A DNA stretch of 64,000 bases from Maribacter polysiphoniae (lineage in GTDB: Bacteria; Bacteroidota; Bacteroidia; Flavobacteriales; Flavobacteriaceae), in contig NZ_QGGQ01000005.1 of NCBI RefSeq assembly GCF_003148665.1, positions 1-64,000 of the forward strand. Direction: 5' to 3'. Numbering within the stretch: the stretch's first letter is position 1; each line of letters begins with the position of its first letter. A program made the position numbers and the translations under genes. Under the pieces are notes generated by a model, which was not told the DNA's origin, searched no databases, and worked only from the letters and a program-made list of their open reading frames with translations. Positions 41,409 to 60,849 of this stretch are shown piece after piece.

Positions 41409-41500
41409 TATGGTGAATGCGGGAATGATCAAGGTCAAAGGTCGTATCCTATCCATTGTGGCCCCCATGCATTTGCATAGTGGGATGGTCTATCCCTAAG

Positions 41501-43842: not shown

Positions 43843-45057
<1,215 letters not shown>

Positions 45058-45064
45058 CTTGTCT

Positions 45065-45817
45065 TTATTGGGTTGTTAGCGGTTTTTCGAGTGATTTAAG
45101 GGCTTCAGTTTTGGTGTTCCTATGTTCGATCTTGGTATCGGAAAGCACCCGGCCATCCCTTAAATACACCATTCGTTTAGCAAACTGGGCGATATCGGGC
45201 TCATGGGTGATCATCAGAATCGTTTTGCCCTTATTGTTCAATTGGACGAAAAGATCCGCAATTTCGAAACTGGTCGTACTATCCAAGTTTCCGGTAGGTT
45301 CATCGGCCAGTATAAGGGCAGGATTATTGACCAAGGCCCTGGCAATGGCTACCCGTTGTTGTTGTCCACCCGAAAGCTCATTGGTCTTATGGTGGATTCG
45401 GTCGGCCAATCCCACTTGCTCCAGTGCCTTTTTGGCAAGTGCCATAGAATTTGAGAACTGTCCGGTTCTGTCATAGATGAGGGGTAATTCCACATTCTCA
45501 AGGGCCGTAGTACGTGATAATAGGTTGTAACTCTGGAAAATGAAACCGATTTTTTGGTTGCGTATATCGGCCAATTGATTTTTGTTCAACGCATTTACCT
45601 GAATGCCATCCAAATAGTATTCACCCGATGTCGGCCTGTCCAAACAGCCGATAATATGGAGTAATGTTGATTTTCCGGATCCCGAGGCCCCCATGATAGC
45701 CACAAACTCCCCTTCTTCTATAACCAAGTCAATATCGGTGAGGGCACGCACTTCGATTTCGCCGGTGTTGAAGGTGCGACTCAGGTTTTTGGTCTCTATG
45801 ACTTTTTTTGTGGCCAT
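45065..45817 (-). CDS. MacB/LolD-type ABC transporter ATP-binding protein
   Basis: ATG at 45817 gives 250 aa; a TTG three codons upstream also exists. Walker A is GASGSGKSTLLHIIGCLDRP, the Q-loop is FIFQSYNLLSRTTALENVEL, the ABC signature is LSGGQQQRVAIARALVN, and Walker B is ALILADEPTGNLDS, with switch His in MITHEPDIA. The subfamily is the LolD/MacB/FtsE group that drives FtsX-type permeases. It lies 5 bp after the adaptor stop and 7 bp before the permease, so all three are one operon. Confidence 0.93.
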   Translation of the reverse strand: MATKKVIETKNLSRTFNTGEIEVRALTDIDLVIEEGEFVAIMGASGSGKSTLLHIIGCLDRPTSGEYYLDGIQVNALNKNQLADIRNQKIGFIFQSYNLLSRTTALENVELPLIYDRTGQFSNSMALAKKALEQVGLADRIHHKTNELSGGQQQRVAIARALVNNPALILADEPTGNLDSTTSFEIADLFVQLNNKGKTILMITHEPDIAQFAKRMVYLRDGRVLSDTKIEHRNTKTEALKSLEKPLTTQ

Positions 45818-45822
45818 GGCGG

Positions 45823-47040
45823 TCAATTTTTGGTTTTTATGCCATTGATGGCACGGATTCCTTCCTGTAAGGGCGTGTCATCGAGATGACGTTTTATTTC
45901 GGTGTGAAGTCCGGTTTTGATTCCAACCTCAATAAACCTGAAATCCAATTTATCCTTGTCATTCTTAAAAAAGTAACCATCAATGGTCGCAGGCAGGTTT
46001 ATTTTGAAATTGGCCGGCGTAAATAATTCTTCATGGTTTAGGGCCTCAATGAATCCCTGTTGTACGGAATCGGGAAGCACTGTCCCTGCCTTTTGTTCCA
46101 ATACCGGTTTTATCTCTTTCAGCATCGCCTCGGTAGGTCTAAAGCGTAAGGCCGAGTTGTTGATCAATAAGACATCTTGGGCGGCATTTACAATGAATTC
46201 GAGGTTTGCGGTCATGCCGGGTAGGAGTAGTCCTTTTTTATTGTCCACATCAACCACCACTTGGTAATTGACGACATTGTTTATCTCTATGGGTTGTAGT
46301 CGTATTTGACTTACCGATCCATAAAATTCTTTTTCGGGATATGTCTGTACGGTAAATCGAACTGGCATACCATCTTTGATGTAACCGATATCGCTTTCAT
46401 CCATATCGGCCAGGATTTGCATTTTTGAGAGGTCTTCCGCAATGATGAACATGGTGGGGGTAGCAAAGGAAGCAGCTACCGTTTGGCCTTCTTCCACACT
46501 GCGTTCAATCACGGTGCCGTCTATGGGTGAGGTTATATGGGCATAATCCCTACTTACCTCTATATTGTCCACCGCGGCTTCGGCCGCTTTTTTTGTGCTT
46601 AAAGCTTGGTTGTAGGCATATTTGGAATCGGTGAATTCCTTGGTCGAGATCACATTTTTTTCATATAGAACCAAATTTCGTTCGTATTCATCCTTGGCCC
46701 GGGATAATTGGGCTTCACTAACACCCAGATTGGCCTTTGCACTGGCAAGGTTGGTGTTCAGTAACTTAAGGTCCATCTCCGCCAGAATCTGCCCCGCAGT
46801 AACCTGGTCGTTATAATCCACATATATTTTTTTGATGGTGCCCGATATCTGTGTGCCTATTTCCACGGTATTGATGGCTTCAACGGTACCGGTACTCGAT
46901 ACATTGGCCTCTATATTTCCCTTTTCCAAGGTGGTATAGTTATAATCAAGCTTTTTGATATTGATTTTGGGTCTTAAAAACACATAACCTAGCAGGGCGA
47001 TGGCCAAAATCATTAAAACAATCCATTTTGACTTTTTCAT
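45823..47040 (-). CDS. MacA-like periplasmic adaptor (HlyD/RND-type membrane fusion protein)
   Basis: This 405-aa protein has an N-terminal membrane anchor (WIVLMILAIALLGYVFLRP). A biotinyl/lipoyl-like domain follows (VSSTGTVEAINTVEIGTQIS, YVDYNDQVTAGQILAEMDLK), a helical hairpin (~95-155; LASAKANLGVSEAQLSRAKD), the second lipoyl half (AHITSPIDGTVIERSVEEGQ) and a beta-barrel domain (VRFTVQTYPEKEFYGSVSQI). It bridges the ABC permease to a TolC-like channel. It is first gene of the efflux operon. Upstream, a weak TGA-N6-TCA site with a correctly spaced -7-like octamer (47084-47128) suggests it may belong to the stress regulon. Confidence 0.92.
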   Translation of the reverse strand: MKKSKWIVLMILAIALLGYVFLRPKINIKKLDYNYTTLEKGNIEANVSSTGTVEAINTVEIGTQISGTIKKIYVDYNDQVTAGQILAEMDLKLLNTNLASAKANLGVSEAQLSRAKDEYERNLVLYEKNVISTKEFTDSKYAYNQALSTKKAAEAAVDNIEVSRDYAHITSPIDGTVIERSVEEGQTVAASFATPTMFIIAEDLSKMQILADMDESDIGYIKDGMPVRFTVQTYPEKEFYGSVSQIRLQPIEINNVVNYQVVVDVDNKKGLLLPGMTANLEFIVNAAQDVLLINNSALRFRPTEAMLKEIKPVLEQKAGTVLPDSVQQGFIEALNHEELFTPANFKINLPATIDGYFFKNDKDKLDFRFIEVGIKTGLHTEIKRHLDDTPLQEGIRAINGIKTKN

Positions 47041-47083: not shown

Positions 47084-47128
47084 TAAAATTAAGGGGTAAT
47101 CTTAATTATTCTTATGACCAAAATCAGT
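47084..47128 (-). promoter_or_regulatory. Weak CRP/FNR-like site and promoter for the efflux operon
   Basis: On the minus strand the site ACTGATTTTGGTCATA (47113-47128) keeps the TGA-N6-TCA core; the flanks are imperfect. Its centre is 29.5 bp from the first base of TAATTTTA (47084-47091), a TAnnTTTG-like octamer with one mismatch. The predicted start of transcription is about 39 bp before the MacA-like ATG. The support is weaker than at the other sites. Confidence 0.4.
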
Positions 47129-47295: not shown

Positions 47296-47340
47296 AATGA
47301 CCTAGGTCATTTCGTAAGGTTGTAACCCCAATTAATTTAG
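47296..47340 (+). promoter_or_regulatory. CRP/FNR-like operator and promoter of hsp20
   Basis: AATGACCTAGGTCATT (47296-47311) is a perfect 16-bp palindrome. TAATTTAG (47333-47340), a one-mismatch version of TAnnTTTG, starts 29.5 bp from its centre. This places the palindrome at about -41.5, the class II activator position of CRP/FNR-family proteins. The octamer is repeated identically at the same spacing at 55387-55394. Confidence 0.7.
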
Positions 47341-47381
47341 CGGCGTAATTAAAGGATTGTTTAACCTAAAAACACATTGTA

Positions 47382-47846
47382 ATGTCACTTGTAAAATTTA
47401 AAAAAAGACCTTTTGGAGATCTTGTAAGTCAGGATTTTTTCGACATGGATGATTTTTTTGACAATCGTTCCTGGGTGAGGAATATGTTACCCGATACCTT
47501 CTGGAATGGTAAAACCACAGAACCAGCGTTAAACATTAAGGAGACCGATGACAAATTCGAAATTGAACTTGCCGCCCCTGGTTTCGCTAAAAAAGATTTT
47601 AATATAACGATTGATGATGGATGCTTGAACATCTCTGCTGAAAAAACAAAATCAGAAGAGGAAAAAGAGGATGATTATACACGTAGGGAATTTAGTTATA
47701 ATGCCTTTGAACGTTCATTGCAATTACCAAAAACCGTTAAGGAAGAGGCTATCAAAGCCAAGTATAACGATGGTATATTGAAATTTGACCTTGTTAAAAA
47801 AGAGGAAGCCAAGAAAAAACCACCCAAAGTGGTAGAGATCGCTTAG
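47382..47846 (+). CDS. Small heat-shock protein (Hsp20/alpha-crystallin family)
   Basis: This 154-aa ATP-independent chaperone holds unfolding proteins. The alpha-crystallin domain occupies ~45-140: KFEIELAAPGFAKKDFNITI, LNISAEK, and the closing motif EEAIKAKYNDGILKFDL, with basic C-terminal tail KKPPKVVEIA bearing the I/V-x-I-like anchor. The N-terminal part is short and Phe-rich (FKKRPFGDLVSQDFFDMDDF), typical of bacterial sHSPs. It has its own promoter with a perfect palindromic operator. The P-type ATPase gene follows 114 bp downstream on the same strand. Confidence 0.95.
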   Translation: MSLVKFKKRPFGDLVSQDFFDMDDFFDNRSWVRNMLPDTFWNGKTTEPALNIKETDDKFEIELAAPGFAKKDFNITIDDGCLNISAEKTKSEEEKEDDYTRREFSYNAFERSLQLPKTVKEEAIKAKYNDGILKFDLVKKEEAKKKPPKVVEIA

Positions 47847-47960
47847 AGATAAAGATCCGAGAATAAAATGCCCATTTGCCACAACCGAAAATATGTCCAT
47901 GTGATTAGGTTTGGCCTAAGGGCATTTTCTCATTAAAGAATAATTGTTCAGTATAGGATT

Positions 47961-50603
47961 ATGGTTCAAGAACCTTTCACAATATCTTCCGGTGAATTTT
48001 TGGATCTTATGGGTGTTGTTCCTGATCAAGGACGCTCCCTTGACGAAGCCCGATTACTTCTTAAACAATATGGGTATAATCAAATACCCCAATACAAACC
48101 CAAAAGCAGAAGTCGAATTCTGGCAGATCAGCTATTTGACCCCATAGTATATATTCTTGCCGTAGCCGCAGTATTGGCCTTTGTCTTTGGTGATGTCATG
48201 GAGGCGTTGGCCATAGTATCGGTATTACTGATATCCATAAGTATCGGTTTTTTTATGGAGTTGAAAGCAGTTCGTTCCCTAGAGGCTTTGCGTAAATTGG
48301 GAGAGGTAAAAACCACAGTGGTACGTTCCGGAAAGAAACAGATCGTTCGTGCAGCGGAAATAGTGCCCGGTGATATCATTTGCTTACAAAGGGGCGATGT
48401 TGTACCTGCCGATGGACGATTGTTTTCTGTGGATAACCTATCCATAAAAGAGTCCGCCTTAACCGGCGAAAGTATTCCTGTCTTTAAAAATGATGATATA
48501 CTGCCCGCCAATACCTCCTTAACGGAACGAACCAATATGATCTATAGGGGGACTACGGTTCTTACGGGTTTTGGAAAAGCCATTATTTCCACAACAGGGA
48601 AAAATACAGAGCTTGGAAGGATCCAACAGATGGGTGTAAATGCGGAAAAGGAAAGAACCCCGCTTGAAACTAAATTGAACCAATTGGGCAAAAGGTTGAT
48701 ATGGCTGACCCTTGTACTTACCTTTCTTATTGTTTTGATAGGCTGCTTTAGGGGTAAGGAACTTCTTTTTATGATTGAGACAGGGGTGGCACTTGCCGTG
48801 GCCTCGATTCCTGAAGGTTTACCCATTGTTGCTACCATTGCTTTGGCCCAAGGGATGTATAGATTGTCCAAAAAGGATGTGATCATAAAAAAACTGGAGG
48901 CCGTTCAGACCTTAGGTGCTACCGATGTCATATTTACCGACAAGACAGGTACATTGACCGAAGACAAAATGAAAGTATATAATCTTGCTTCTTCGAAAGG
49001 GGAGGTGTTGGATGTAGAGGGGGGAGACTTTAAACGTAGGGTAAAGCATGATCCCGTATTAAATAGAATGATCCAGGCTTCCATTCTCTGCAATAATATT
49101 GATGTTAATGTCGATAATCCCACGGGTGATTCCATTGAAATGGCTTTGATTGGTTTTGCCCGAGGGCTAGGCTATGATGTCAACGCCATAAAGGGTGAAT
49201 ATCCCGAATATTTGGAGCTTCCCTTCAATGCAAATCGAAAATTAATGGCCACCGTACATCATAATGGTGATTTCGTGGTCTATGCAAAAGGGGCTTTTGA
49301 GAGTTTGATTTCCCATTGCCGATATTACCAAGATGAAAACGAAAAGAAACCTTTCGGAAATACGGAAGAATGGTATGAAAAAATTGATTCCTTGGCAGCC
49401 CAGGGTTTGCGTATTCTGGCTTTTGCCTATAAGGAAACGGAAAAAGCCCCTACAGAAGATACTATTTTGGACCAACTTGTGTTTTTGGGCATTATCGGTT
49501 TTTTGGATCCAGCAAGGAAAGATGTAAAGGCAACCCTTGATGTTTATAAAAAAGCAGGTATAAAAGTGGTGATGGTTACGGGTGACCACCCAAGCACGTC
49601 AAAAAAAATCGCACAGGAAGTAGGTTTGCTTGAGGCAAATGCGTCCCCTACTAAAATCATTAGGGGAAATAATATAGGTTTGGAGAACAGTCAGAATAAA
49701 GAGCGTGTCCAAAGATTGTTGAATGCCACGATCTTTGCGCGGGTATCACCGGAACAAAAATTGAATCTCGTTTCTTTTTATCAACAGAACGGCCATATCG
49801 TAGGAATGATCGGGGATGGTATCAACGATGTTCCTGCCTTAAAGAAAGCGGACATAGGAATTGCCATGGGGATTCGGGGAACAGAGGCAGCACGGGAGGT
49901 AGCCGATGTTATCCTTAAGAATGACAAGTTTACGGCCATAGAACTTGCCATTAATCAAGGAAGGGTCATTTTTCAGAATATTCGCCAATTTGTGGTATAT
50001 CTTTTGTCTTGTAATTTGGCGGAAATCCTATCTGTTGGTTTCGCTGCATTACTGAATCTACCGTCACCTCTGTTGCCTCTACAGATCCTTTTTTTGAATT
50101 TGGTCACCGATATCTTTCCCGCCCTGGCCCTAGGTCTAGGAAAAGGGGAATCAGATATTATGGATCAACCACCTAAAAATCCTAAAGCACCGATCATAAA
50201 CCGAATTCAATGGTATGCTATCATCATTTATGGGTTCAGTATTTGTGCTTCGGTTATGGGTATGGTGGCATATGCGCATTTTGTACTTCGATTGGAGCCG
50301 ATTATCATTAATAATTTGGCTTTCTATACACTGGTTTTGGCACAACTTCTAAATGTTTTCAATATGCCTAAAAGCCATGGGTCATTCTTCGTGAATGAGG
50401 TTACAAGGAACCCTTGGGTATGGGGCGCTATTTTATTGTCAATCGCAATTACGGGCTTGGCCTATCTTATAGCGCCAATAGCGGAAGCCCTTTCTTTAAA
50501 AAATCTGTCGGGCGAGACTTTTACAATAGTCCTAGTGTTCGCTTTGGGGTCCCTGTTACTTGCGCAGTTATTGAAAAGGCTTTTAGCCTTTAAGGTTTCT
50601 TAA
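47961..50603 (+). CDS. P-type ATPase, P-II (Ca2+-type) cation pump
   Basis: This 880-aa protein has an N-terminal cation-ATPase domain, two helices, an A-domain with LTGES (~167-171), and M4 motif SIPEGLPIVATIAL, the Ca2+-pump-like PEGLP. The phosphorylated Asp is ~327 in DVIFTDKTGTLTED, the P-domain has GMIGDGINDVPALKKADIGI, and a C-terminal cluster of six helices follows. Similar pumps export Ca2+ or Mn2+; the exact ion is not certain. It is downstream of hsp20 and could be read through from its promoter; a loose inverted repeat (47865-47928) lies between them. The companion pump at 58339-60849 is a different subtype (PEEIP). Confidence 0.9.
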   Translation: MVQEPFTISSGEFLDLMGVVPDQGRSLDEARLLLKQYGYNQIPQYKPKSRSRILADQLFDPIVYILAVAAVLAFVFGDVMEALAIVSVLLISISIGFFMELKAVRSLEALRKLGEVKTTVVRSGKKQIVRAAEIVPGDIICLQRGDVVPADGRLFSVDNLSIKESALTGESIPVFKNDDILPANTSLTERTNMIYRGTTVLTGFGKAIISTTGKNTELGRIQQMGVNAEKERTPLETKLNQLGKRLIWLTLVLTFLIVLIGCFRGKELLFMIETGVALAVASIPEGLPIVATIALAQGMYRLSKKDVIIKKLEAVQTLGATDVIFTDKTGTLTEDKMKVYNLASSKGEVLDVEGGDFKRRVKHDPVLNRMIQASILCNNIDVNVDNPTGDSIEMALIGFARGLGYDVNAIKGEYPEYLELPFNANRKLMATVHHNGDFVVYAKGAFESLISHCRYYQDENEKKPFGNTEEWYEKIDSLAAQGLRILAFAYKETEKAPTEDTILDQLVFLGIIGFLDPARKDVKATLDVYKKAGIKVVMVTGDHPSTSKKIAQEVGLLEANASPTKIIRGNNIGLENSQNKERVQRLLNATIFARVSPEQKLNLVSFYQQNGHIVGMIGDGINDVPALKKADIGIAMGIRGTEAAREVADVILKNDKFTAIELAINQGRVIFQNIRQFVVYLLSCNLAEILSVGFAALLNLPSPLLPLQILFLNLVTDIFPALALGLGKGESDIMDQPPKNPKAPIINRIQWYAIIIYGFSICASVMGMVAYAHFVLRLEPIIINNLAFYTLVLAQLLNVFNMPKSHGSFFVNEVTRNPWVWGAILLSIAITGLAYLIAPIAEALSLKNLSGETFTIVLVFALGSLLLAQLLKRLLAFKVS

Positions 50604-50646
50604 TCCAAATACAATCAAAGGTAGTGGGGGAATGATAAATAAGGCA

Positions 50647-51717
50647 TCAATAATTATCCGCAATATTCTGTAGTCGTTCCTTGTCAAGGAGTATTATTCT
50701 TCGGGCATGACCCATGGTTATAAGTTTTTCCTCCTTGAATTCGGAGAGGGTCCGTATGGCTGTTTCCGTAGCCGTACCGATCATACCGGCAAAGTCTTCC
50801 CGGGGAATATCCAGACCCTCGTAATAGGAGTCTTTAATGATACCTTTCTTATGAAGGGTCAATAGAGCCTTGGCGACACGTTGTCGTACGGAGGAATAGG
50901 CCATGTTCACCAATTGGTCCTGAACTTCGATAAGATTGCTGGAAATGATTTCCATAAATTTTTGGGAGACACCCTTCTTGTCATTGATAAGATGTATAAA
51001 ATCGGATTTCGGAATAGCGTATGCCTCGGTATCGTCGAGTGCAATGGCGGTCTCCAGATAGGTTCCCTTGGGGTTCAACAGCGAAAGTTGCCCTATGAAA
51101 TCACCGGCCTTGTAGATGCCGGTCACGAATTCTTTTCCCGATTCTGTTGACTTGTACGTCTTGACTGTTCCGTTTTCAATGAAATATAGGGTATGGGCAC
51201 CATCCTCCTCCCTAAAAATAAAATCCTTCTTGTCATATAATTTAGGATGGTATTCCTTTTCAATATGCTCTAGGTTGAGGTAGTTGTAGGCATCATGAAA
51301 AAAATCATTGATGCCCTTCATGCTCTTTGAAAATTCCTTTCGAAGAAAATCGTTCTTTTTGACCCGGGTTTGGATGGCTTCGAGCAGTTCGTGTTCCTCA
51401 AAGGGTTTTGTCAGATAATCGTCTGCCCCAAGGTTCATTCCTTTTCTGAAATCCGTTCTTTCTGTTTTGGCGGTTAAAAAAATGAAGGGTATCCCTAGTG
51501 TTTCGGGGTTGTTGCTTAATTCTTCCAGCACGGCGTAACCATCCTTTATTGGCATCATGATATCGCAGAGGATGAGGTCGGGTAAATAACGTTTTGCCTT
51601 TTCTATACCAATGAGTCCATTTTCAGCGGTCACCACTTCGTAATCATGAAGTGCTAATATATCTGCTGTATTCTCACGTACATCTACATGGTCTTCAATC
51701 AATAGGATTTTTTTCAT
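50647..51717 (-). CDS. Response regulator-Crp/FNR fusion (receiver + cNMP-binding fold + HTH)
   Basis: ATG at 51717 gives 356 aa; ten codons upstream another start exists, but the receiver begins MKKILLIEDH. Receiver (~1-120): acidic pair E8/D9, phospho-acceptor D52 (LILCDIMMP), T82, K104 (YLTKPF). A cyclic-nucleotide-binding fold (~150-260; LYFIENGTVKTYKSTESGKE, GDFIGQLSLL) has no visible FNR-type cysteines. The Crp-like HTH (~275-335; DIPREDFAGMIGTATETAIR) keeps Glu318 and Arg322, the residues that in CRP/FNR contact TGA half-sites. It lies 195 bp downstream of the LOV kinase, its probable partner, on the same strand. It is the best candidate to bind the TGA-N6-TCA palindromes in this region. 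Confidence 0.92.
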   Translation of the reverse strand: MKKILLIEDHVDVRENTADILALHDYEVVTAENGLIGIEKAKRYLPDLILCDIMMPIKDGYAVLEELSNNPETLGIPFIFLTAKTERTDFRKGMNLGADDYLTKPFEEHELLEAIQTRVKKNDFLRKEFSKSMKGINDFFHDAYNYLNLEHIEKEYHPKLYDKKDFIFREEDGAHTLYFIENGTVKTYKSTESGKEFVTGIYKAGDFIGQLSLLNPKGTYLETAIALDDTEAYAIPKSDFIHLINDKKGVSQKFMEIISSNLIEVQDQLVNMAYSSVRQRVAKALLTLHKKGIIKDSYYEGLDIPREDFAGMIGTATETAIRTLSEFKEEKLITMGHARRIILLDKERLQNIADNY

Positions 51718-51911
51718 GGCATTTTGTGTAACGTTATTGGTATACATCCTTTTTGTACAGACCTATTTGGGTAAGTCCTCTCTTCTATACACTCCATGGG
51801 TTCCAATGGTGTCCATGGTTTAATTAACGGCCAACGATCAGTATTGCTTCGTTCCCCTTATAGAACGATATGTCCATCTTTATTTGTTTTAAGTCACTTT
51901 TCCTTTTTAAA

Positions 51912-54900
51912 TTATATGTCCTCTGTTTTCTTCGATGCGGGAAAGGAGACCCAAAAGGTTGCCCCCTTGTTTTCTTCACTTTCCAAGCCTATACTGCCCC
52001 CCATAAGTTCGGTGTACTGTTTTACGATATTAAGGCCCAATCCCGTTCCTTGAATGTTCACACTGTTTTTTGCCCTGAAGAACCTTTGGAAAAGTTGGTC
52101 TTGTTCATCTTTGGGAATACCAATGCCTTGATCCGTTACCTTTATCGAAACTGTACGGTTTTCTTTGAGCAGGGTAACCAGGATTTCCTGACCCTCTTGG
52201 GAATATTTAATGGCATTGCTTAAAAGATTGGTTAAGATATGACTCATTAGTTTGAGGTCTAGATACGCTTCAATGCTATTTTCATTTGCAATTACCTTGA
52301 TCTTTTGCCCTCTTTTCCGATTCGATTCAAAGTCCGATATGATTTTTTTGGAGAAGTCTACCAAATCCATTATTTCGGGATTGGGTCGTACCCGACCTTC
52401 TTCCAATTTCCCCAAGGAAAGGAAATCGTTTAGGATTATCACCAAAGCCTTTACGTTGTGTTTGATTTGGGTCACATATTTTTCACGTTTGGCCTCTTTA
52501 CCTGGGGCATTTTGTTTTTCAATGAGGATTGCCGAGGAATGGATTGCACTCAGTGGCGTTCTGAATTCATGGGAAGCCATGGAAATAAAGCGCGATTTCA
52601 ACTCGTTGAGTTCCTGCTCACGTACCAGGGCTTTACGGATTTCAGTCTCTGCCTGTTTTTGTTTGGTGATGTCATTGTAAACAAAAAGGGTCCATTTTAC
52701 CTCATCGTTTCCACCCATTAAAGGGGAGGTGTTTACAGTGTAATATTTATTGTTGAACTGGGTCTCAAAAGATAGATGCTCACCTTTCATGGTGCGTTTT
52801 ATATCATTTTTGACCCTATGGATCCGTTCTTTCTTGAAAACCGTAATGTTATCGATACACCTACCTTCAAAATCGGTTTTATCCATGCCCATTCGCCGCA
52901 TTTCCCCTCCATCTATATAATCGATTTCAAAATCGGCATTAAAGACAATGATGATACCTTTCGGGAAATTTTTGGCTATTGCGGTAAACATTGATTGACT
53001 CTCCAAGGCCCTATTTTCGGCATCTTTGGTTTCCTTGATTTGATCTTCAAGATTAAGGTTGGCCTCGATCATTTTTTGAACGGTGGCCTTTAGTTCATTG
53101 GTACGTTCGTTAACCGTTTGTTCCAGTTCCCGCGTATACTTTTCCAACAGATAATGGCTTTTCGTCAACTGCTCCCGGATCTGATGCTCTTCTATGGCAA
53201 TACCGATCAATTGGTTGAGTTCAAGAATAAAGTCCTTGTCTATCTTTGTAGGTATTCTTTGTTTTTTGCAATAAATACCAAAAATGCCCAAAGCCTTTTG
53301 GTCCGAAGAAAATATGGGATATGACCAACACGATACCAAACCGTGTTTTATCGCAGCATCATGGTAGTCGGCCCATTGTGGATTGGTCGTGATATCCGGG
53401 ATGATCATTTCCTTTTTTAAATAGGCCGCCATGCCACATGGACCCATGTCGGGTCCTAGGGGGGCACCTTCAATAATATTGCAAAATCCTTTCGGTAAAT
53501 TGGGTGCGGCCAATTTGTGGAGTGTTTTCCTCATGGGATCCAATACGAAGATGGAGGCAAAGCAACAGACTAAATGATTTTCCAATACCTCCACTATTTT
53601 TTTGCTGATTTTTTCCAGCGATTTCTGTTTTGCGATCATTTCAAGGATTTGGCGCATCTGGTCCTTGATCTGTAATTCTTTGATACGATCCGTCACATTA
53701 TTCTGTACACCAATAAAATGGGTCAGTTGTTTATGCTTGTTGATGACAGGCGTAATGGTAAGTTCGTTATAGAAGAGGGTACCGTCCTTGCGATAATTCC
53801 GAAGCAAGGTCCGGCTGGTTTTGCGGGTCCTTATGGCTTCGCGAATGATGTCGATACCTTCTTGATCCCGATCACCTTTTTGTAAAAAGCGACAATTCTT
53901 GCCCAAAACCTCACTGCGTTCATATCCCGTTAGTTTGCAAAATGCGTCGTTGCAATAAATAATGGGAAGGTCCTGTTGACGGGCGTCAACAATGATAATA
54001 CTATTCCCGGCAGCTTCCAGCGCACTATTTCGTACATTCAAGACATCCTGGATGGCCTTGGTCTTGGTTACATCCCTTAAAACGCAGAGAAAAGTCTCAT
54101 TTTCAAGGGGCACAAACCGCGTTTCAAAGTCGGTCGGTTTTTGGTTTATGGGTACGGTGATGATCTGTAAGACCGTATTCTTGGTTTCTTCGACCTTTGT
54201 AATGGCCTTTTGAATTTGTACACTTATCTTGGGGGGTAGGATTTCCTTGAAATTCTTCCCGACCAAATCTTCAATAGGGCCAACGATGGGCGAATAATCC
54301 GAAGCATTTACCTGTAAAATACTACCTTTCTTATCATGTATAAAAATCAAATCGGGTAACGCTGCCAGAACGGCTCTGTTCTTAACCTCACTTTCCTTTA
54401 ATTCCCTTTCAGTACTTTTTTTCTCGGTGATATCCCGTACAATGGTTAATAGTTTATGATTGTTGAGGGGGACGGTCCTCGATTCGAAATCGGTTTTTTT
54501 GCCATTGATGTCCAAGGTATACTCCCGAATTTGGATTTTTTGGGTTTCAATGGCTTGGTTATGGGCTTTTAGGATTTTTTTTGATATTTCCGGCGGAACG
54601 ATTTGTTTGATGTTCTTGCCAATGACTTCCTCTTTTGGGACTTGTGCTATGGTGTTTTCCGGGGCATAGAAATCAACAATATCACCAGCAAAGTTTTGAA
54701 TGACCATAATATCGGGCAGTGCGTCTAAAAGGGCTTTGTTCTTAGCTTCTTTGGCTTTTAATGCATATTGCCCTTTTTTTAGGTCGATAGTATCCCTGAC
54801 GTACGCAATGGTTACGGATTCGTCATTGAACATAATGGGACTGAGACTTATTCGTAAGGGAAATTCTGTACCATCTTTTTTTTGTCCCCATAAATCAAGG

Positions 54901-55154
54901 GCCTGATCCATTAATCGTGCTCTAGGGGCTTTGGAATAATCCATGCGTTGTTGTTGATGGATTTCCCTTAGTTCTTTAGGTAATAAAAGCTCGATTTTTT
55001 CATTCAATAGCTCCCCTTTACCATACCCGAACATGGCTTCAACGGCACTATTCGATTTTATTATTTTACCATCTTCGTCCACCACAAGGATACCTTCGAG
55101 GGAAGCATCGAAAATATGTTTGAAAAGGGAGAGGTCTTTGGGGTTGTCTTTCAT
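51912..55154 (-). CDS. Large hybrid-sensing histidine kinase with LOV, PAS and GAF domains
   Basis: This 1080-aa cytoplasmic protein has no membrane segment. In order it has PAS1 (~8-125), PAS2 (~138-245), PAS3 (~255-365), a LOV domain (~375-490), GAF (~505-660), a coiled coil (~660-715) and PAS (~720-835). The kinase core follows: HisKA with phospho-His 862 (FISMASHEFRTPLSAIHSS), N-box with N980 (LTNLLSNAIKYS), VTDQGIGIP and GTGLGLNIV. The LOV domain has the photoactive motif GKNCRFLQ (Cys421), NYRKDGTLFYNE (N453, N463) and FIGVQNNVTDR (Gln484), all expected flavin-binding positions for blue-light photoreceptors. No receiver is fused. It is upstream of the RR-Crp gene on the same strand, and a palindrome (55214) sits at its own promoter, implying autoregulation. 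Confidence 0.93.
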   Translation of the reverse strand: MKDNPKDLSLFKHIFDASLEGILVVDEDGKIIKSNSAVEAMFGYGKGELLNEKIELLLPKELREIHQQQRMDYSKAPRARLMDQALDLWGQKKDGTEFPLRISLSPIMFNDESVTIAYVRDTIDLKKGQYALKAKEAKNKALLDALPDIMVIQNFAGDIVDFYAPENTIAQVPKEEVIGKNIKQIVPPEISKKILKAHNQAIETQKIQIREYTLDINGKKTDFESRTVPLNNHKLLTIVRDITEKKSTERELKESEVKNRAVLAALPDLIFIHDKKGSILQVNASDYSPIVGPIEDLVGKNFKEILPPKISVQIQKAITKVEETKNTVLQIITVPINQKPTDFETRFVPLENETFLCVLRDVTKTKAIQDVLNVRNSALEAAGNSIIIVDARQQDLPIIYCNDAFCKLTGYERSEVLGKNCRFLQKGDRDQEGIDIIREAIRTRKTSRTLLRNYRKDGTLFYNELTITPVINKHKQLTHFIGVQNNVTDRIKELQIKDQMRQILEMIAKQKSLEKISKKIVEVLENHLVCCFASIFVLDPMRKTLHKLAAPNLPKGFCNIIEGAPLGPDMGPCGMAAYLKKEMIIPDITTNPQWADYHDAAIKHGLVSCWSYPIFSSDQKALGIFGIYCKKQRIPTKIDKDFILELNQLIGIAIEEHQIREQLTKSHYLLEKYTRELEQTVNERTNELKATVQKMIEANLNLEDQIKETKDAENRALESQSMFTAIAKNFPKGIIIVFNADFEIDYIDGGEMRRMGMDKTDFEGRCIDNITVFKKERIHRVKNDIKRTMKGEHLSFETQFNNKYYTVNTSPLMGGNDEVKWTLFVYNDITKQKQAETEIRKALVREQELNELKSRFISMASHEFRTPLSAIHSSAILIEKQNAPGKEAKREKYVTQIKHNVKALVIILNDFLSLGKLEEGRVRPNPEIMDLVDFSKKIISDFESNRKRGQKIKVIANENSIEAYLDLKLMSHILTNLLSNAIKYSQEGQEILVTLLKENRTVSIKVTDQGIGIPKDEQDQLFQRFFRAKNSVNIQGTGLGLNIVKQYTELMGGSIGLESEENKGATFWVSFPASKKTEDI

Positions 55155-55184
55155 TATACTTCATTGCTGTTTAATGGCATAAGA

Positions 55185-55229
55185 TAAATTTAACGTAGTT
55201 GTAGGTATTTTCCAATGACTTTAGTCATA
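55185..55229 (-). promoter_or_regulatory. CRP/FNR-like operator and promoter of the LOV kinase
   Basis: AATGACTTTAGTCATA (55214-55229) is a near-perfect palindrome with arms AATGAC/GTCATa. In the minus direction, TAAATTTA (55185-55192) starts 29.5 bp from its centre, a TAnnTTTG-like octamer with one mismatch. The predicted leader to ATG 55154 is about 26 nt. The kinase gene would be under control of its own regulon. Confidence 0.65.
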
Positions 55230-55349
55230 TATATATTGGGAGAAAAAGAATTTTGGACGCCCCATTTAAGGGAGGGGTTATTGGATATAGGGGTATAGGG
55301 AAGGTTGGGCTGTTTTGATCCAAGTAGGAGATGGGGTTTTTGTGGGCCA

Positions 55350-55394
55350 ATTGATGTAGATCATTTACTAGGCTCCATCCTTATGGTAATTTAG
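55350..55394 (+). promoter_or_regulatory. CRP/FNR-like operator and promoter of the gene at 55419
   Basis: ATTGATGTAGATCATT (55350-55365) has one mismatch between arms. TAATTTAG (55387-55394) starts 29.5 bp from its centre, the same octamer at the same distance as before hsp20. The predicted transcription start lies about 20 nt before ATG 55419 and about 50 nt before ATG 55449. Confidence 0.65.
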
Positions 55395-55418
55395 CGAACA
55401 GAGAATAATCCATTACCT

Positions 55419-55901
55419 ATGTATAAGTGTTTTCCTAAGAACAGTCCCATGATATCAAAATTGAAAATAACAGGAAGGCAACATACTTTCTCAGAAACAA
55501 TACCGCAGTTGGAAAATGTAGAAAAGTTTGTTGGTCGTATAGCGGAAAATAGGCTGTATTCGCCATTGACCGTGTTGTTGAAACTGGGACAGTACGATCA
55601 ACAGAAAAGTAAATCAGCTGCATGTAATAAGGGATTTATAAATTATTGGAAGCACTTATTGGGACCGTCTACGGAATTTGGATTGTTTTTTAATGAGGAT
55701 ATTGGCACCATTTTTATTGTGGGCCCCTATTCGGCATTGTTCCTACAGGAAGTCGATGGTAAGAAATTGGGAGCCCTTTCCCAGGGGATCTATGGTATTT
55801 TAAGGGGATTGGGGCTTAGTGACCAAAAAACGTCGGAAGCTATCCGGAAATTGGGGGAAGGCCAGTATCTTCTTTTGGGTAAAGTCTCTAGGGATGATTA
55901 A
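55419..55901 (+). CDS. Conserved hypothetical, possible general-stress protein
   Basis: This protein is 160 aa from ATG 55419, or 150 aa from ATG 55449, where the MISKLKITGRQHTFSETIPQ block begins and which gives a more usual leader length. The C-terminal half is glycine-rich with alternating hydrophobics (IFIVGPYSALFLQEVDGKKL, LSQGIYGILRGLGLSDQKTS), faintly like small stress-associated proteins that carry a glycine-rich 'GPxSALL' segment. I do not recognise the family and do not assign a function. It has its own palindromic operator, so it is predicted to be induced with hsp20 and the kinase. Confidence 0.65.
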   Translation: MYKCFPKNSPMISKLKITGRQHTFSETIPQLENVEKFVGRIAENRLYSPLTVLLKLGQYDQQKSKSAACNKGFINYWKHLLGPSTEFGLFFNEDIGTIFIVGPYSALFLQEVDGKKLGALSQGIYGILRGLGLSDQKTSEAIRKLGEGQYLLLGKVSRDD

Positions 55902-55968
55902 GGGCGCCTTACGGTCAAAGGATTGGATGGCACGTATAGGAAGGGTGAAAGAAAAGGAAGCCCTAGGT

Positions 55969-56856
55969 TCATCCTGAAATCAATTTTGCCATGCTCTTTT
56001 TCGCATCACTTAGAATCACTGCGTTTTTGGTGAAATTTTCCCAAGGGTCGTTCATATGCTTTAATCGATCAGGCACAGTATGGATGTTGAAGGCCTGTGC
56101 GTCCTTTATTTCATACAGTTCCTTCCAGAAAATGGGTGTAGCCACGGGTGCATTTTCCAAAGCCCGAACGGAGTAAGGGCAAACCGCGGTTTGGCCGTAA
56201 GAATTGCGAAGGTAATCCAAGAACAGGCGTCCCTTTCGTTCGTCCTTATGGATTGCTATGGTAAAATCCTCAGGGTGTTTTTCTGCCAGATAAGTCGCGA
56301 CTTTTTTAGCAAAGTCCCGTACTTCATCAAAGTGTTCGACCCGCATTAGGGGTATGGTCAAATGAAGCCCTTTAGAACCGGTGGTCATAACATAGGTAGG
56401 CAGCCCTAATTGTTCAGCCAATAAACTGCGTAGTATTTGCACACCTTTTAGAACTTGCCCGAAATTATGTCCGGAAGGATCAAGGTCGAAAATCAATCGA
56501 TCGGGATAATCGAGCTTATCGATCTTGCTAAGGGAAATATGAAAGGTTATTGTGCCTTGATAGGCCAAATAGGCCAATGTCTCCTTATTGTTGCAAATGA
56601 CGTGGTTTACCCATCCGTCTTTCTTCTTCACCTTTACGGTTTTTATCCATTGGGGAAAGTAATCCGATGCATTCTTCTGAAAAAAACCTTCTTCCGCAAT
56701 ACCGTTTGGAAAACGGTGCAGGGTCAATGGCCTGTCCTTGAGATAGGGTAGTATATGCCCCGCGACGGAATTGTAATAATCGATCAGGTTTCCCTTGGTG
56801 ATTCCCGATATAGGGAAAAGCATCTTTTCACTGTGCTTTATTTGTGACGATGGCAT
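55969..56856 (-). CDS. Stand-alone LigD-type polymerase/primase domain
   Basis: This 295-aa protein is a primase-polymerase (AEP superfamily) equal to the PolDom of the NHEJ ligase LigD, without ligase or phosphoesterase domains. The catalytic Asp pair is in RLIFDLDPSG (D124, D126), the third Asp in LFLDYLRNSY (D214). KGLHLTIPL and the N-terminal DYYNSVAGHILPYLKDRPLT with LHRFPNG are hallmarks. It fills short gaps during end joining, preferentially with ribonucleotides. No Ku gene is in the window. It shares an intergenic region with the palindrome at 57025; a TAATTTTC octamer at 56996-57003 lies at the matching 29.5-bp distance in its direction. Confidence 0.9.
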   Translation of the reverse strand: MPSSQIKHSEKMLFPISGITKGNLIDYYNSVAGHILPYLKDRPLTLHRFPNGIAEEGFFQKNASDYFPQWIKTVKVKKKDGWVNHVICNNKETLAYLAYQGTITFHISLSKIDKLDYPDRLIFDLDPSGHNFGQVLKGVQILRSLLAEQLGLPTYVMTTGSKGLHLTIPLMRVEHFDEVRDFAKKVATYLAEKHPEDFTIAIHKDERKGRLFLDYLRNSYGQTAVCPYSVRALENAPVATPIFWKELYEIKDAQAFNIHTVPDRLKHMNDPWENFTKNAVILSDAKKSMAKLISG

Positions 56857-56995
56857 GATTTTAAAAGTTTGGAATCGTTTGTACTAATGGGTCAATCCTT
56901 GCAATGGGGAATATAAAACAAGACATTTTTATTCACTTCCATTTAAACCATTAACCCGTTGGATATTTTTACTCAAATGAATTTCAAAACATACC

Positions 56996-57069
56996 GAAAA
57001 TTAATGTAATACTTTAAATGCCAAAATGATACAGATCATTTTAGGAACAAGGGTAAGTTTGCATTTTTG
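56996..57069. promoter_or_regulatory. CRP/FNR-like operator with divergent -7-like elements
   Basis: AATGATACAGATCATT (57025-57040) has perfect six-base arms around a 4-bp spacer. In the plus direction CATTTTTG (57062-57069) starts 29.5 bp from its centre; in the minus direction TAATTTTC (56996-57003) does too. Each differs from TAnnTTTG at one position. One site could therefore serve both the 57118 gene and the LigD-type polymerase gene. A perfect TAAGTTTG (57054-57061) also occurs but at other spacing. Confidence 0.6.
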
Positions 57070-57117: not shown

Positions 57118-57516
57118 ATGATTACTACAAAATCAAATCCGAAAACGGAATTACTTTTAGGGGCTAGTCTTGATGTTCTTCATCAGGAAAGTCGTGAATG
57201 GATCGATACCATTGCTTTTTGGAAAGACGAAATCAAGTTCTTTTCCAATATTTTGGATAAACGGGAAGCCACACAATCTGAATATGGCAAGATGTTGGAT
57301 TATCTTGAAAAGGTGCATCAAAATCTCTTTAATTATCTATCGGAGGATATAATGAAGCATGAAAAATTACTCTCACGCCTTAATCAAGGGGAAAAGGGTA
57401 TTTCCGATGGGGCATACAGGGATGAGCATAGAAGGTTGGGCGAGAGTATGGTTCTTTTTAAAAATGACTTTAGGGAATTCAAAAAGATGGTCTTCGGTTA
57501 TGCGAAGAAACTTTGA
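57118..57516 (+). CDS. Helical hypothetical protein, paralogue of 62617-63009
   Basis: This 132-aa predicted all-helical, soluble protein has no recognised family. Its first helix carries WIDTIAFWKDEIKFFSNILD, a pattern repeated in the 130-aa protein at 62617-63009 (WKSELAFWEDELKSFTNRLS). The ends of both proteins match loosely too (DFREFKKMVFGYAKKL; DLKKDFFRFLSKYM). A W-x3-AFWxDE(I/L)KxFxN motif can be used to trace the family. It has its own promoter with a palindromic operator, so it is expected to be part of the stress regulon. It converges with exonuclease III. Confidence 0.65.
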   Translation: MITTKSNPKTELLLGASLDVLHQESREWIDTIAFWKDEIKFFSNILDKREATQSEYGKMLDYLEKVHQNLFNYLSEDIMKHEKLLSRLNQGEKGISDGAYRDEHRRLGESMVLFKNDFREFKKMVFGYAKKL

Positions 57517-58338: not shown

Positions 58339-60849
58339 TTATATATCGTGGGCACCAGTACTTCGCTTATACAGTTTAATAAACTCGTACCAGATTACCG
58401 ATAAAAACCCTACACCCGAACTTAAAAATATTTGGTTTGCATTCAAGGAGGAAAATTCAAAAAACCGGGTTAGGGGAGGTATGAAAAGGAGCATGACAGT
58501 TACGGCAATCGTGACCATGATGATCATAGGAACCAGTGGGTTCCTGTATTTTAGGGTTGTAAGGATGGAATAGTAAAATGATCGATTGACAAGGGTCAAT
58601 ACAATATTGGCCGAGATCAAGGAGACGAATACCATGGTCCTGGTTGTGGCTTCGTCAAAACCGGAATGTATGGCAAGCTGATAGGTAGCCAATGCACCTA
58701 CGGTAATCATTAAACCTTGCAGAACGCTTGTGGCCAGTTCTACCGAATTAAAAAAAGTAGCCGTAAACGGCCGGGGTTTTTCAATCATGGTGTTTTTTTC
58801 CATGGGTTCATTTTCATAAATGATACTACAGGTAGGGCCCATGATCAATTCTAGGAAAATGATATGTACGGGGGTGAATATGTTGGGGAAGGTCCAGCCT
58901 AAAACCAAAGGAAAGAACACTGTCAATATTATCGGGATATGAATGGAGATAATGTACTGAATGGCTTTTTTTAGGTTGGTATAAATACGTCTGCCCATGG
59001 CTATGGCATCCAACATTCGGGATAGGTCGTCCTCGAGCAGGATCACCGAAGCTGCTTCTTTGGCGGTTTCCGTACCTTTTTTACCCATGGCTACCCCGAT
59101 ATGTGCGGCTTTTAGCGCTGGGGCATCGTTAACGCCATCCCCTGTCATGGCCACAATTTCCCCATTGGCTTTAAGGGCATTGATGATTTTCAACTTGGCT
59201 TCAGGGAACATCCGTGTAAATATGTGGTTGGTGTCTACCTGCGCTCGAAGTTGGGTGTCGCTCAAGTGCATTAGGTCCATACCCGAAATACTTTTTCCAG
59301 ATTCCTTAAACCCGATTTCCTTGGCTATGGCAGCCGTGGTAAGCGCATTGTCCCCTGTTACGATCTTGACTTTTATTCCGGCGGAATCGAAACCTTGTAG
59401 CACTGATTCAATATTTTTTTTGGGAGGATCGTAAAAGGCAACGATTCCCTTGAATTCAAAATGAAGATCTTGTTGTTTTCTAGGAAAGGAATTACCAACG
59501 AATTTCGATGTGCCCACACCCAAGATTCGAAATCCTTCCTTGGCAAGTTCGTTAATGGCGGCATTGATATGTTGTATCTGGTTCTCGGAAAGTTTGGAAA
59601 CCGCGATCAAAGCCTCGGCGGCACCTTTGGCCGCAATGATCCGGTCACCATCCTTATTTTCGAAAACATGTGTCATCATAGGTGGTTTGCCACCCAAGGG
59701 GTATTCGTGGACCATGCTATATCCTGGGCGATCATCTTTCGCAGCGATTTTTTTGTACTCTTCATGAAGGGCAATCTCCATGGCATCGAAGGGTATGGGC
59801 TCACTCGCCCACATGGCTGTTGTTACAAGGTCCCTCTCGGCCGAATCCAAAGGCCCTTTGATATCGGTTATCGACTTTGAGGATAATGTCCATAGTTTGG
59901 TCAAAGCCATTTTATTCTCGGTAAGGGTTCCCGTTTTGTCGGAACAGATAACGGTAGCACTCCCTAAAGTCTCGACAGTTTTCATTTGCTTTACGATAAC
60001 GCCCAATTTCATTAACCGATATGAACCCAAGGCCATAAATGTGGTAAAGGCTACAGGGATCTCTTCAGGTAAGATCGACATGGCCAAAGTGAGTGCCTTC
60101 AGCAAGCTGTCCAATATATCCCGGGAATTGTAAAAATTGATACCCCATACGATGACAAAAACAAGGGCACCGACAATGACCATTTTTTTGACAAAGTTGT
60201 TGATTTGGCGTTCAAGGGGGGTCTTTTCTTCCTGTATGCTTTCTAAACTTTTACCTATTTTCCCCAATTCGGTTTTATTGCCAATTGCCGTAACCGTGGC
60301 AATAGCAAGTCCGCTTGCAACCGTAGTGCCCTTGTAAATAGCGTTGTTGTTTTTTTCGGAATCCTTATAGATCGATAGGGACTCCCCGGTAAGCAGTGAT
60401 TCATTGACCGAAAAATCATTGGAATGAACTATGGTGGCATCAGCGGTAATGGTGGTTCCCTCTTCGACCATCAGGCTATCGCCGACAACAACATCCTCAC
60501 TTTTGATCTCAATCACCTTCCCATTGCGAATGACCTTGCACTTGGGTTGGGCATATGATTTTAATTTCTCTAGGGCATTGCGACTTCGCCCATCCTGGTA
60601 TAAGGAAATTGCCGATACCAAGACAATGGCAGAGGCAAGGAAAATACCGTCCCCGAAATCCCCCGATACAAAATAGATTACGGATGCCACCAATAACAAG
60701 AGGACCATAGGTTCTTTGGCCAAACTCTGTAAGGCTTTTAGAACACCAACCTCTTTCTTTCCTTCCAAGGTATTTTTTCCATAAGTGGTCCTCGCCCGGA
60801 GTACTTCCTCGGTAGTCAATCCTTTAATATCGAAATGATCTATTGACAT
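58339..60849 (-). CDS. P-type ATPase, second cation pump (PEEIP subtype)
   Basis: This 836-aa protein has the actuator TGES (LLTGES ~152-157), M4 motif SILPEEIPVAFTTFMAL, phosphorylated Asp ~304 in SDKTGTLTENKM, nucleotide domain, and hinge EIVAMTGDGVNDAPALKAAH. The C-terminal helices include IIFLELIMGPTCSIIYENEP. The PEEIP M4 motif differs from the PEGLP of the pump at 47961-50603, so the transported ion is likely different (Ca2+, Mg2+ or a monovalent ion); sequence alone does not settle it. It is probably in the operon ftsH-hypothetical-ubiB-ATPase-xth, with an 82-bp gap from ubiB. Confidence 0.9.
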   Translation of the reverse strand: MSIDHFDIKGLTTEEVLRARTTYGKNTLEGKKEVGVLKALQSLAKEPMVLLLLVASVIYFVSGDFGDGIFLASAIVLVSAISLYQDGRSRNALEKLKSYAQPKCKVIRNGKVIEIKSEDVVVGDSLMVEEGTTITADATIVHSNDFSVNESLLTGESLSIYKDSEKNNNAIYKGTTVASGLAIATVTAIGNKTELGKIGKSLESIQEEKTPLERQINNFVKKMVIVGALVFVIVWGINFYNSRDILDSLLKALTLAMSILPEEIPVAFTTFMALGSYRLMKLGVIVKQMKTVETLGSATVICSDKTGTLTENKMALTKLWTLSSKSITDIKGPLDSAERDLVTTAMWASEPIPFDAMEIALHEEYKKIAAKDDRPGYSMVHEYPLGGKPPMMTHVFENKDGDRIIAAKGAAEALIAVSKLSENQIQHINAAINELAKEGFRILGVGTSKFVGNSFPRKQQDLHFEFKGIVAFYDPPKKNIESVLQGFDSAGIKVKIVTGDNALTTAAIAKEIGFKESGKSISGMDLMHLSDTQLRAQVDTNHIFTRMFPEAKLKIINALKANGEIVAMTGDGVNDAPALKAAHIGVAMGKKGTETAKEAASVILLEDDLSRMLDAIAMGRRIYTNLKKAIQYIISIHIPIILTVFFPLVLGWTFPNIFTPVHIIFLELIMGPTCSIIYENEPMEKNTMIEKPRPFTATFFNSVELATSVLQGLMITVGALATYQLAIHSGFDEATTRTMVFVSLISANIVLTLVNRSFYYSILTTLKYRNPLVPMIIMVTIAVTVMLLFIPPLTRFFEFSSLNANQIFLSSGVGFLSVIWYEFIKLYKRSTGAHDI

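Follow-up and report, generated by a model that had tools for sequence, protein, structure and literature searches.

A 64,000-nucleotide stretch of the Maribacter polysiphoniae genome (contig NZ_QGGQ01000005.1, positions 1 to 64,000; hereafter the window) encodes on its minus strand a candidate regulator in which a receiver is joined to a cyclic-nucleotide-binding fold and a Crp helix-turn-helix (RR-Crp, 50647..51717), and, adjoining it on the same strand, a PAS/LOV/GAF histidine kinase (51912..55154). The surrounding DNA carries five TGA-N6-TCA palindromes, each in register with an octamer resembling the −7 box of Bacteroidota promoters, which an original prediction had taken for the sites of a CRP/FNR-type regulon. 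That reading holds in its main points; what is new is the set of regulators, a division of the sites by two cores, a link to LOV and a set of survival genes. Most likely, the locus represents a LOV-kinase/RR-Crp class II activator system that would run a dormancy-like regulon.

The sequences, coordinates and orientations of the five palindromes, and their octamers, all match the original prediction, and the distance of 29.5 bp from palindrome centre to octamer is exact at all five. Each 16-mer is thus followed after 21 bp by its octamer (TAATTTAG, TAAATTTA, TAATTTAG, CATTTTTG and TAATTTTA), which equals TGAY-N4-RTCA plus 23 bp (N23). On the plus strand, the palindrome AATGACCTAGGTCATT (47296..47311), with a CTAG core and its centre at a predicted −41.5, and the octamer TAATTTAG (47333..47340) would serve hsp20 (47382..47846, PF00011), downstream of which a P-type cation ATPase gene (47961..50603, plus strand) may belong to the same transcript. 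The weaker palindrome ACTGATTTTGGTCATA (47113..47128, as read on the minus strand), paired with TAATTTTA (47084..47091, minus), faces the gene of an HlyD-type membrane-fusion protein (45823..47040, minus) that heads an ABC efflux set (45065-45826, 43843-45057). The kinase gene has TATGACTAAAGTCATT (55214..55229, as read on the minus strand) and TAAATTTA (55185..55192, minus). Two plus-strand candidate target genes without Pfam or NCBIfam match complete the set: one for a 160-residue protein (55419..55901), preceded by ATTGATGTAGATCATT (55350..55365) and TAATTTAG (55387..55394), and one for a 132-residue protein (57118..57516), preceded by AATGATACAGATCATT (57025..57040) and CATTTTTG (57062..57069). 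The window contains 32 copies of TGA-N6-TCA, and TGAY-N4-RTCA occurs six times outside open reading frames (ORFs) of at least 80 residues; in five of these six, the set place is taken by an octamer that has no more than one mismatch, and the sixth, at 41424, has no such octamer. The region holds a second P-type cation ATPase gene (58339-60849), within which a TGA-N6-TCA at 58585 has no matching octamer.

The bare palindrome was rejected as evidence: AWTGAYNNNNRTCAWT occurs at 33 places in the genome, compared with 8 for the backwards pattern, but its version with a 5-bp spacer occurs at 36, compared with 2, so that there is no genome-wide enrichment. The composite behaves differently. A whole-genome scan for the palindrome with the fixed octamer distance (TGAYNNNNRTCA-N23-TANNTTTR), as the original prediction had proposed, gave 59 matches, and the backwards control only one. 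When the spacing was left free, exact matches to TGAYNNNNRTCA-N{8,38}-TAWWTTTR in the 5.13 Mb of the genome numbered 43 (backwards control, 4), and N23 accounted for 31 of them, the other 12 being spread singly over 12 spacings. Among 29 of the 31 that were placed relative to ORFs, 27 are not inside one and 2 are.

A site-independent sample was provided by the loci of relatives found through their RR-Crp protein. In 21 such loci, nearly all from named Flavobacteriaceae (389 kb), 73 exact pairs stand at N23 and 0-3 at each other spacing, though these are not 73 independent events, because locus L043 is near-identical to the window (97%) and loci of related genera share history. The control with outward-turned half-sites gave none at N23 in the same loci. 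Eight loci of other Bacteroidota yielded 6 pairs at N23 versus 0-2 at other spacings, and 14 loci with only a partial RR-Crp match yielded none at N23, or one if one octamer mismatch was allowed. As to whether matches are as frequent in coding DNA as upstream of genes, the outcome on which the original prediction had staked its reading, 107 of the 120 N23 pairs in the 21 loci (octamer with 0-1 mismatch) are not wholly inside ORFs, in DNA of which the counted ORFs (at least 100 residues) cover 88%; for the other palindrome readings of these loci, which include opposite-strand readings of paired palindromes, it is 121 of 184. The composite thus withstands this refuting condition. A gene start follows on the same strand within 1 kb for 97 of the 107 pairs and within 300 bp for 85, at a median of 45 bp from the octamer start to the gene start. 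Finally, the composite is present in 91 of 100 sampled family genomes, in up to 59 copies, and the backwards control in 39, in at most 4 copies. Together, these counts mark the composite as a real, family-wide promoter code.

In Flavobacterium psychrophilum, the TAnnTTTG −7 box spans −12 to −5 (PMC9723704), and by this measure the palindrome centre comes to lie at −41.5, a value that in M. polysiphoniae is inferred from the position of the −7 box. Combined with the fixed N23, this agrees with the class II position that had been predicted, and we regard it as very probable from the sequence pattern that class II geometry holds. A logo drawn from 119 sites gives A-A-[A/C]-TGAY-n-T-A-n-R-TCAT-T-T, followed by TAnnTTT[G/A]. 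The composite may be written as [A/C]TGAY-N4-RTCATTT ... TAnnTTTR, its palindrome centre and −7 box lying 29.5 bp apart. Its two flanks differ: in 114 sites (L043 excluded), the proximal flank is T in 111, giving a nearly fixed TCAT, while the distal flank is the mirroring A-TGA in 52 and C-TGA in 56. The palindromic site thus has a built-in asymmetry, with TCAT proximally and CTGA allowed distally (L044-L057, L063, L065-L068, L071), from which we infer that the proximal half overlaps the −33 contact.

HTH_Crp_2 has seven matches in the genome, six of them above cut-off. Three are RR-Crp fusions, namely the window copy, one on C18 (57% identical to the window copy) and one on C4 (44%), each adjoining a histidine kinase on the same strand. 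A further one is an Fnr-like protein (C5:132985) that has a CxxC close to the N-terminus and whose best-scoring NCBIfam model, Fnr, is matched below the cut-off of that model. These four share the recognition helix A-T-E-[TS]-x-I-R, which the other two above-cut-off proteins lack. Pfam models place the window RR-Crp in the Crp/Fnr superfamily (PF00027, 1.5e-20; PF13545, 2.1e-15), and its receiver (PF00072, 6.3e-27) has E8, D9, D52, T82 and K104. The predicted Glu and Arg at the recognition positions are Glu318 and Arg322 in the helix TATETAIRTLS (50743..50775, minus strand), and both residues recur in every one of the 49 helices that 59 loci yielded (10 loci gave none), under a search pattern that allowed only E/S and R/K at these two positions. 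Binding of cyclic AMP (cAMP) by CRP involves an Arg/Ser feature of the phosphate-binding cassette; the corresponding window segment, GQLSLLNPKGTYLETA, lacks the Arg, where 3h3u, which we take to be M. tuberculosis CRP, has GPRTSSA. Nor does the window RR-Crp contain the iron-sulfur (Fe-S) Cys cluster of FNR, its single Cys being residue 51. Because of these two absences, phosphorylation at Asp52 is the likely switch.

In a tree of 57 RR-Crp rows (61 were tried, and a usable ORF was obtained for 57), the window and C18 copies group in one clade of 24 rows (support 100/98) and the C4 copy into another, also of 24 rows (96/86). The RR-Crp matches of two relatives (L097, L102; G007, G042) have one TAA inside the aligned span. 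Among 80 family genomes, 33 encode a full-length RR-Crp, a 34th match being a receiver only, and 8 have the window type. The median number of composites per genome is 21 in the 33 genomes with RR-Crp versus 6 in the 47 without (p 6e-8), and 21.5 versus 10 when only genomes of 2.7 Mb or more are counted (p 4e-6).

Among the 29 loci of relatives, 22 have a kinase gene just before that of RR-Crp, with gaps of −22 to 194 bp. The window kinase reads as a LOV histidine kinase: it matches PF00512 (HisKA) and PF02518 (HATPase), its LOV domain (53670..54023, minus strand; residues about 378-495) contains the cysteine motif GKNCRFLQ, and residues 371-555 have blue-light photoreceptor structures among their best matches. 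The LOV cysteine is kept in 12 of the 15 adjacent kinases of window-type relatives. The first PAS of the window kinase has its closest matches in the PAS of a multi-sensor kinase, in DosP and in FixL, and a His at the heme-ligand position is found in 6 of the 15 window-type kinases of relatives; with this count, we did not adopt a heme-PAS as their common sensor, which would fit the C4 branch better. The C4 kinase has a single PAS, nearest to FixL PAS structures, with the heme-ligand His of FixL aligned. Of seven non-window-type kinases read, counting C4 but not L070, whose start lies beyond the site, six have a His at that position. Our best guess from these motifs is LOV input for the window branch and heme-PAS input for the C4 branch. 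That light is in fact the input we consider plausible, at somewhat less than an even chance.

The targets that had been predicted for the window can be followed into relatives, where we scored TGA-N6-TCA plus an octamer with up to 2 mismatches before the best match with a covered start. A site precedes 12 of 13 hsp20 genes, 4 of 7 kinase genes, and 4 of 4 and 4 of 8 genes for the 160- and 132-residue proteins; for the efflux genes, named as a possible target, both HlyD orthologues found have a site. For the proposal that the LigD-type primase-polymerase gene (55969..56856, minus strand) is also served, the site evidence is mixed. A possible reverse octamer, TAATTTTC (56996..57003, minus strand), faces it, but among four relatives this is kept in L043 only, and we did not adopt the gene as a firm target. 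The Maribacter luteus gene (L044:4797) has its own, different, well-formed site and octamer, TATTTTTA.

With the closest gene that a paired site points at (octamer with 0-1 mismatch) taken as its target, the stress clusters of the genome comprise genes for Hsp20 (window, L028), universal stress proteins (Usp; L028, three in L034, L042), YtxH, a DeoC-like aldolase, DUF2267, Band 7, MlaE, enolase, DUF308, a ferritin-like protein, a ClC channel, YflT, a LolA-like protein, an E1 dehydrogenase, PfkB and an M50 peptidase with CBS, several nearest genes being without Pfam match. In L028, genes for another Usp, for Pta and for acetate kinase lie behind the Usp gene in the same orientation, presumably in a single transcript. 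The DUF302 and YkuD genes of L028 were dropped, as no site with a matching octamer faces either. At three genes, two of them for Usp, the octamer falls 8-19 bases inside the longest ORF, so that the true start is probably later. AT-type sites precede a cytochrome c gene then nosZ, a heavy-metal P-type ATPase, a molybdopterin oxidoreductase and a Usp gene. The nosZ locus (L035:15124-18212, C5:99124-102212) consists of a cytochrome c gene, one that no NCBIfam model matched and nosZ, for a Sec-type nitrous-oxide reductase, and the palindrome ahead of them has an exact octamer on both sides. Across 15 window-type loci of relatives, the 60 genes behind sites include 10 HSP20, 8 YtxH, 5 Usp and 4 BON genes. 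A control of 60 genes drawn at random from the 171 others has 2 Usp and, among the 25 families listed, no HSP20 or YtxH; this control includes the RR-Crp anchor genes, and 11 of 242 ORFs were excluded for exceeding 900 residues. We take the enrichment of these target families in relatives as indicative.

The sites divide by their four central bases. The mean number of C/G among these is 1.42 near window-type RR-Crp (95 sites) versus 0.52 near the other type (25 sites); within the genome itself it is 1.42 for 38 sites (window, L028, L033, L034, L042) versus 0.24 for the 33 others, in groups made by hand after the sites were seen. TA cores flanked by C/G number 27 in the window-type genomes, occurring in 8 of 8, versus 10 in 72 others; in the window they are represented at 47296 (CTAG) and 55350 (GTAG). 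With C/G required on the first side only (S-TA-V), the counts are 22 and 4, and for the control core S-AT-N they are 4 and 25. Because the AT control core behaves oppositely, base composition is no explanation for the co-occurrence. That C/G-flanked TA-core sites track the window-type RR-Crp clade lends indirect support to RR-Crp as the predicted regulator, as do Glu318 and Arg322 in the recognition helix and the sites before hsp20 genes of relatives; we hold this assignment to be probable. Around the Fnr-like gene, which is flanked by heavy-metal P-type ATPase and Usp genes (L036:1526-5771, C5:130-134 kb), lie three AT-core sites, none with more than one mismatch in its octamer. Going further, two regulator lineages whose base-reading residues are identical might split one code by nothing but the central four bases, CTAG-like for light and AT-rich for oxygen, giving a blue-light and part-oxygen survival regulon; this we advance only tentatively.

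It is probable, in our reading of the sequences, that the composites are class II activator sites and that those of the stress type are read by receiver-Crp fusions, with LOV/PAS/GAF kinase input and survival-set output. The kinase would phosphorylate Asp52 of the neighbouring RR-Crp, and binding by the Crp part would depend on this modification and not on cAMP or an Fe-S cluster. A dimer at −41.5 would then activate sigma-A RNA polymerase, replacing the −33 contact, and the kinase gene's own site would provide positive feedback. The output would be a survival set of universal stress proteins, Hsp20, the Usp-Usp-Pta-acetate kinase run, PfkB, enolase, the ferritin-like protein and the P-type ATPase, while the Fnr-like protein and the third RR-Crp, with its FixL-like kinase, would mostly read AT-core versions, including those before the nosZ operon, the heavy-metal ATPase and the molybdopterin oxidoreductase.

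Chance could be thought to suffice for the site set, as AT-rich intergenic DNA yields palindromes and TAnnTTT octamers freely and the bare 16-mer is indeed no commoner than its N5 version. We give this almost no credence and reject it for the set in view of the sharp peak at a single spacing with flat neighbours, seen in the genome as well as in relatives; single sites may still be due to chance. A repressor, with bound RR-Crp blocking the promoter, is a different matter insofar as an analysis confined to sequence is compatible with either direction of regulation. However, −41.5 is the class II activator place, and repressor sites usually vary in position, so that the centre at −41.5, the single fixed spacing and the preserved −7 box make repression very improbable.

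Which protein reads a given site is less clear-cut, and several observations weigh against the window RR-Crp and its LOV kinase as the general answer. Three of the 15 adjacent kinases are without a LOV motif, at least one of them being cut by a contig end, and the C18 kinase (L042:4148-7483) has the LOV-like GKNFHFLQ, in which Phe replaces Cys. The 10 C/G-flanked TA-core sites outside window-type genomes (6 in 25 genomes with only other RR-Crp, 4 in 47 without any) and the window sites at 55214 (TAAA), 57025 (ACAG) and 47113 (TTTG), which lack that core, do not follow the rule, and the core and composite counts are uncorrected for relatedness among genomes that are not independent. Genomes without detected RR-Crp still carry up to 36 composites, and other proteins, probably Fnr-like, therefore use the same geometry. 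Given four near-identical A-T-E-[TS]-x-I-R helices, some sites may be served by another protein than the window RR-Crp, and assignment of a single site is statistical. It could accordingly be argued that the oxygen-sensing Fnr-like protein binds all sites, RR-Crp being a mere neighbour: its helix residues are the same, Fnr is its best model, albeit under the cut-off, and RR-Crp-less genomes with composites fit it, as do the AT-core sites before the nosZ operon and the heavy-metal ATPase gene. We nevertheless find this unlikely, since C/G-flanked TA-core sites follow window-type RR-Crp and not genomes at large, with the inner C/G contents of 1.42 versus 0.52 given above. Alternatively, RR-Crp and the Fnr-like protein may overlap on one shared site, the core merely tuning relative affinity, with most targets under joint control of light/PAS signals and oxygen. 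The common helix and geometry, the mixed window cores (ACAG at 57025, TAAA at 55214) and a GCTG core in front of a Usp gene of the C4 cluster, where cores are AT-rich otherwise, make this possible, although not likely, against which stands the difference of core classes by locus type and genome content.

If stress-type sites are indeed read by RR-Crp, the system combines features of several known ones. E. coli FNR and CRP at class II promoters use TGA-N6-TCA half-sites, a helix with Glu and Arg, and a centre at −41.5. The system described here resembles them in half-sites and helix and, by its predicted position, in the centre, but it has the Bacteroidota −7 box TAnnTTTG, a receiver domain in place of cAMP or Fe-S control, a nearly fixed proximal TCAT and a distal A or C. 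FixL-FixJ-FixK of rhizobia links a PAS kinase, a receiver and a Crp-type output in one signalling chain, as would be the case here, where the PAS of the C4 kinase is closest to FixL; but the receiver is fused to the Crp part in a single protein, LOV is retained in the kinase of the window type and the window-type targets are stress genes. LovK and Brucella LOV-HK are LOV histidine kinases of the general stress response, and although a blue-light-type LOV kinase would likewise be tied to stress genes here, the output has a Crp fold and there is no anti-sigma/PhyR switch. DosR of M. tuberculosis has a LuxR-type DNA-binding domain and controls the pfkB-acr cluster; our regulator instead has a Crp helix-turn-helix, and its site is unrelated. 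The gene set is nonetheless like the DosRST dormancy set in that Hsp20, Usp, PfkB and cation ATPase occur in the stress clusters; in M. tuberculosis hypoxia and dormancy, the genes for HspX (an Hsp20), a universal stress protein, PfkB and a cation ATPase are reported to be co-induced, with the pfkB-acr cluster listed as DosR-independent in one study (PMC8044303). Of the same family and order are the Crp/Fnr homologues of MalR type, which were predicted with a Bacteroides MalR matrix in metagenome-assembled genomes, those of Flavobacteriales among them, and for which carbon sensing was proposed (PMC8510549); the main text of that report is without 'palindrom', 'TGA' or 'universal stress' and has 'response regulator' once. 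Neither an RR-Crp regulon nor this composite site is named for flavobacteria in the titles and abstract starts searched, which cover the subscription literature thinly, so that prior work is possible.

With a composite this sharp, sequence alone suffices to define a regulon, and the composite offers a direct promoter-level test case for class II activation with the unusual −7 box of Bacteroidota. It also presents a natural case in which paralogous regulators with the same helix may split their targets by core sequence; if true, the two-lineage split would amount to insulation of paralogous regulators by indirect readout. And if the LOV kinase is the input, marine flavobacteria would couple light to a gene set resembling that of dormancy.

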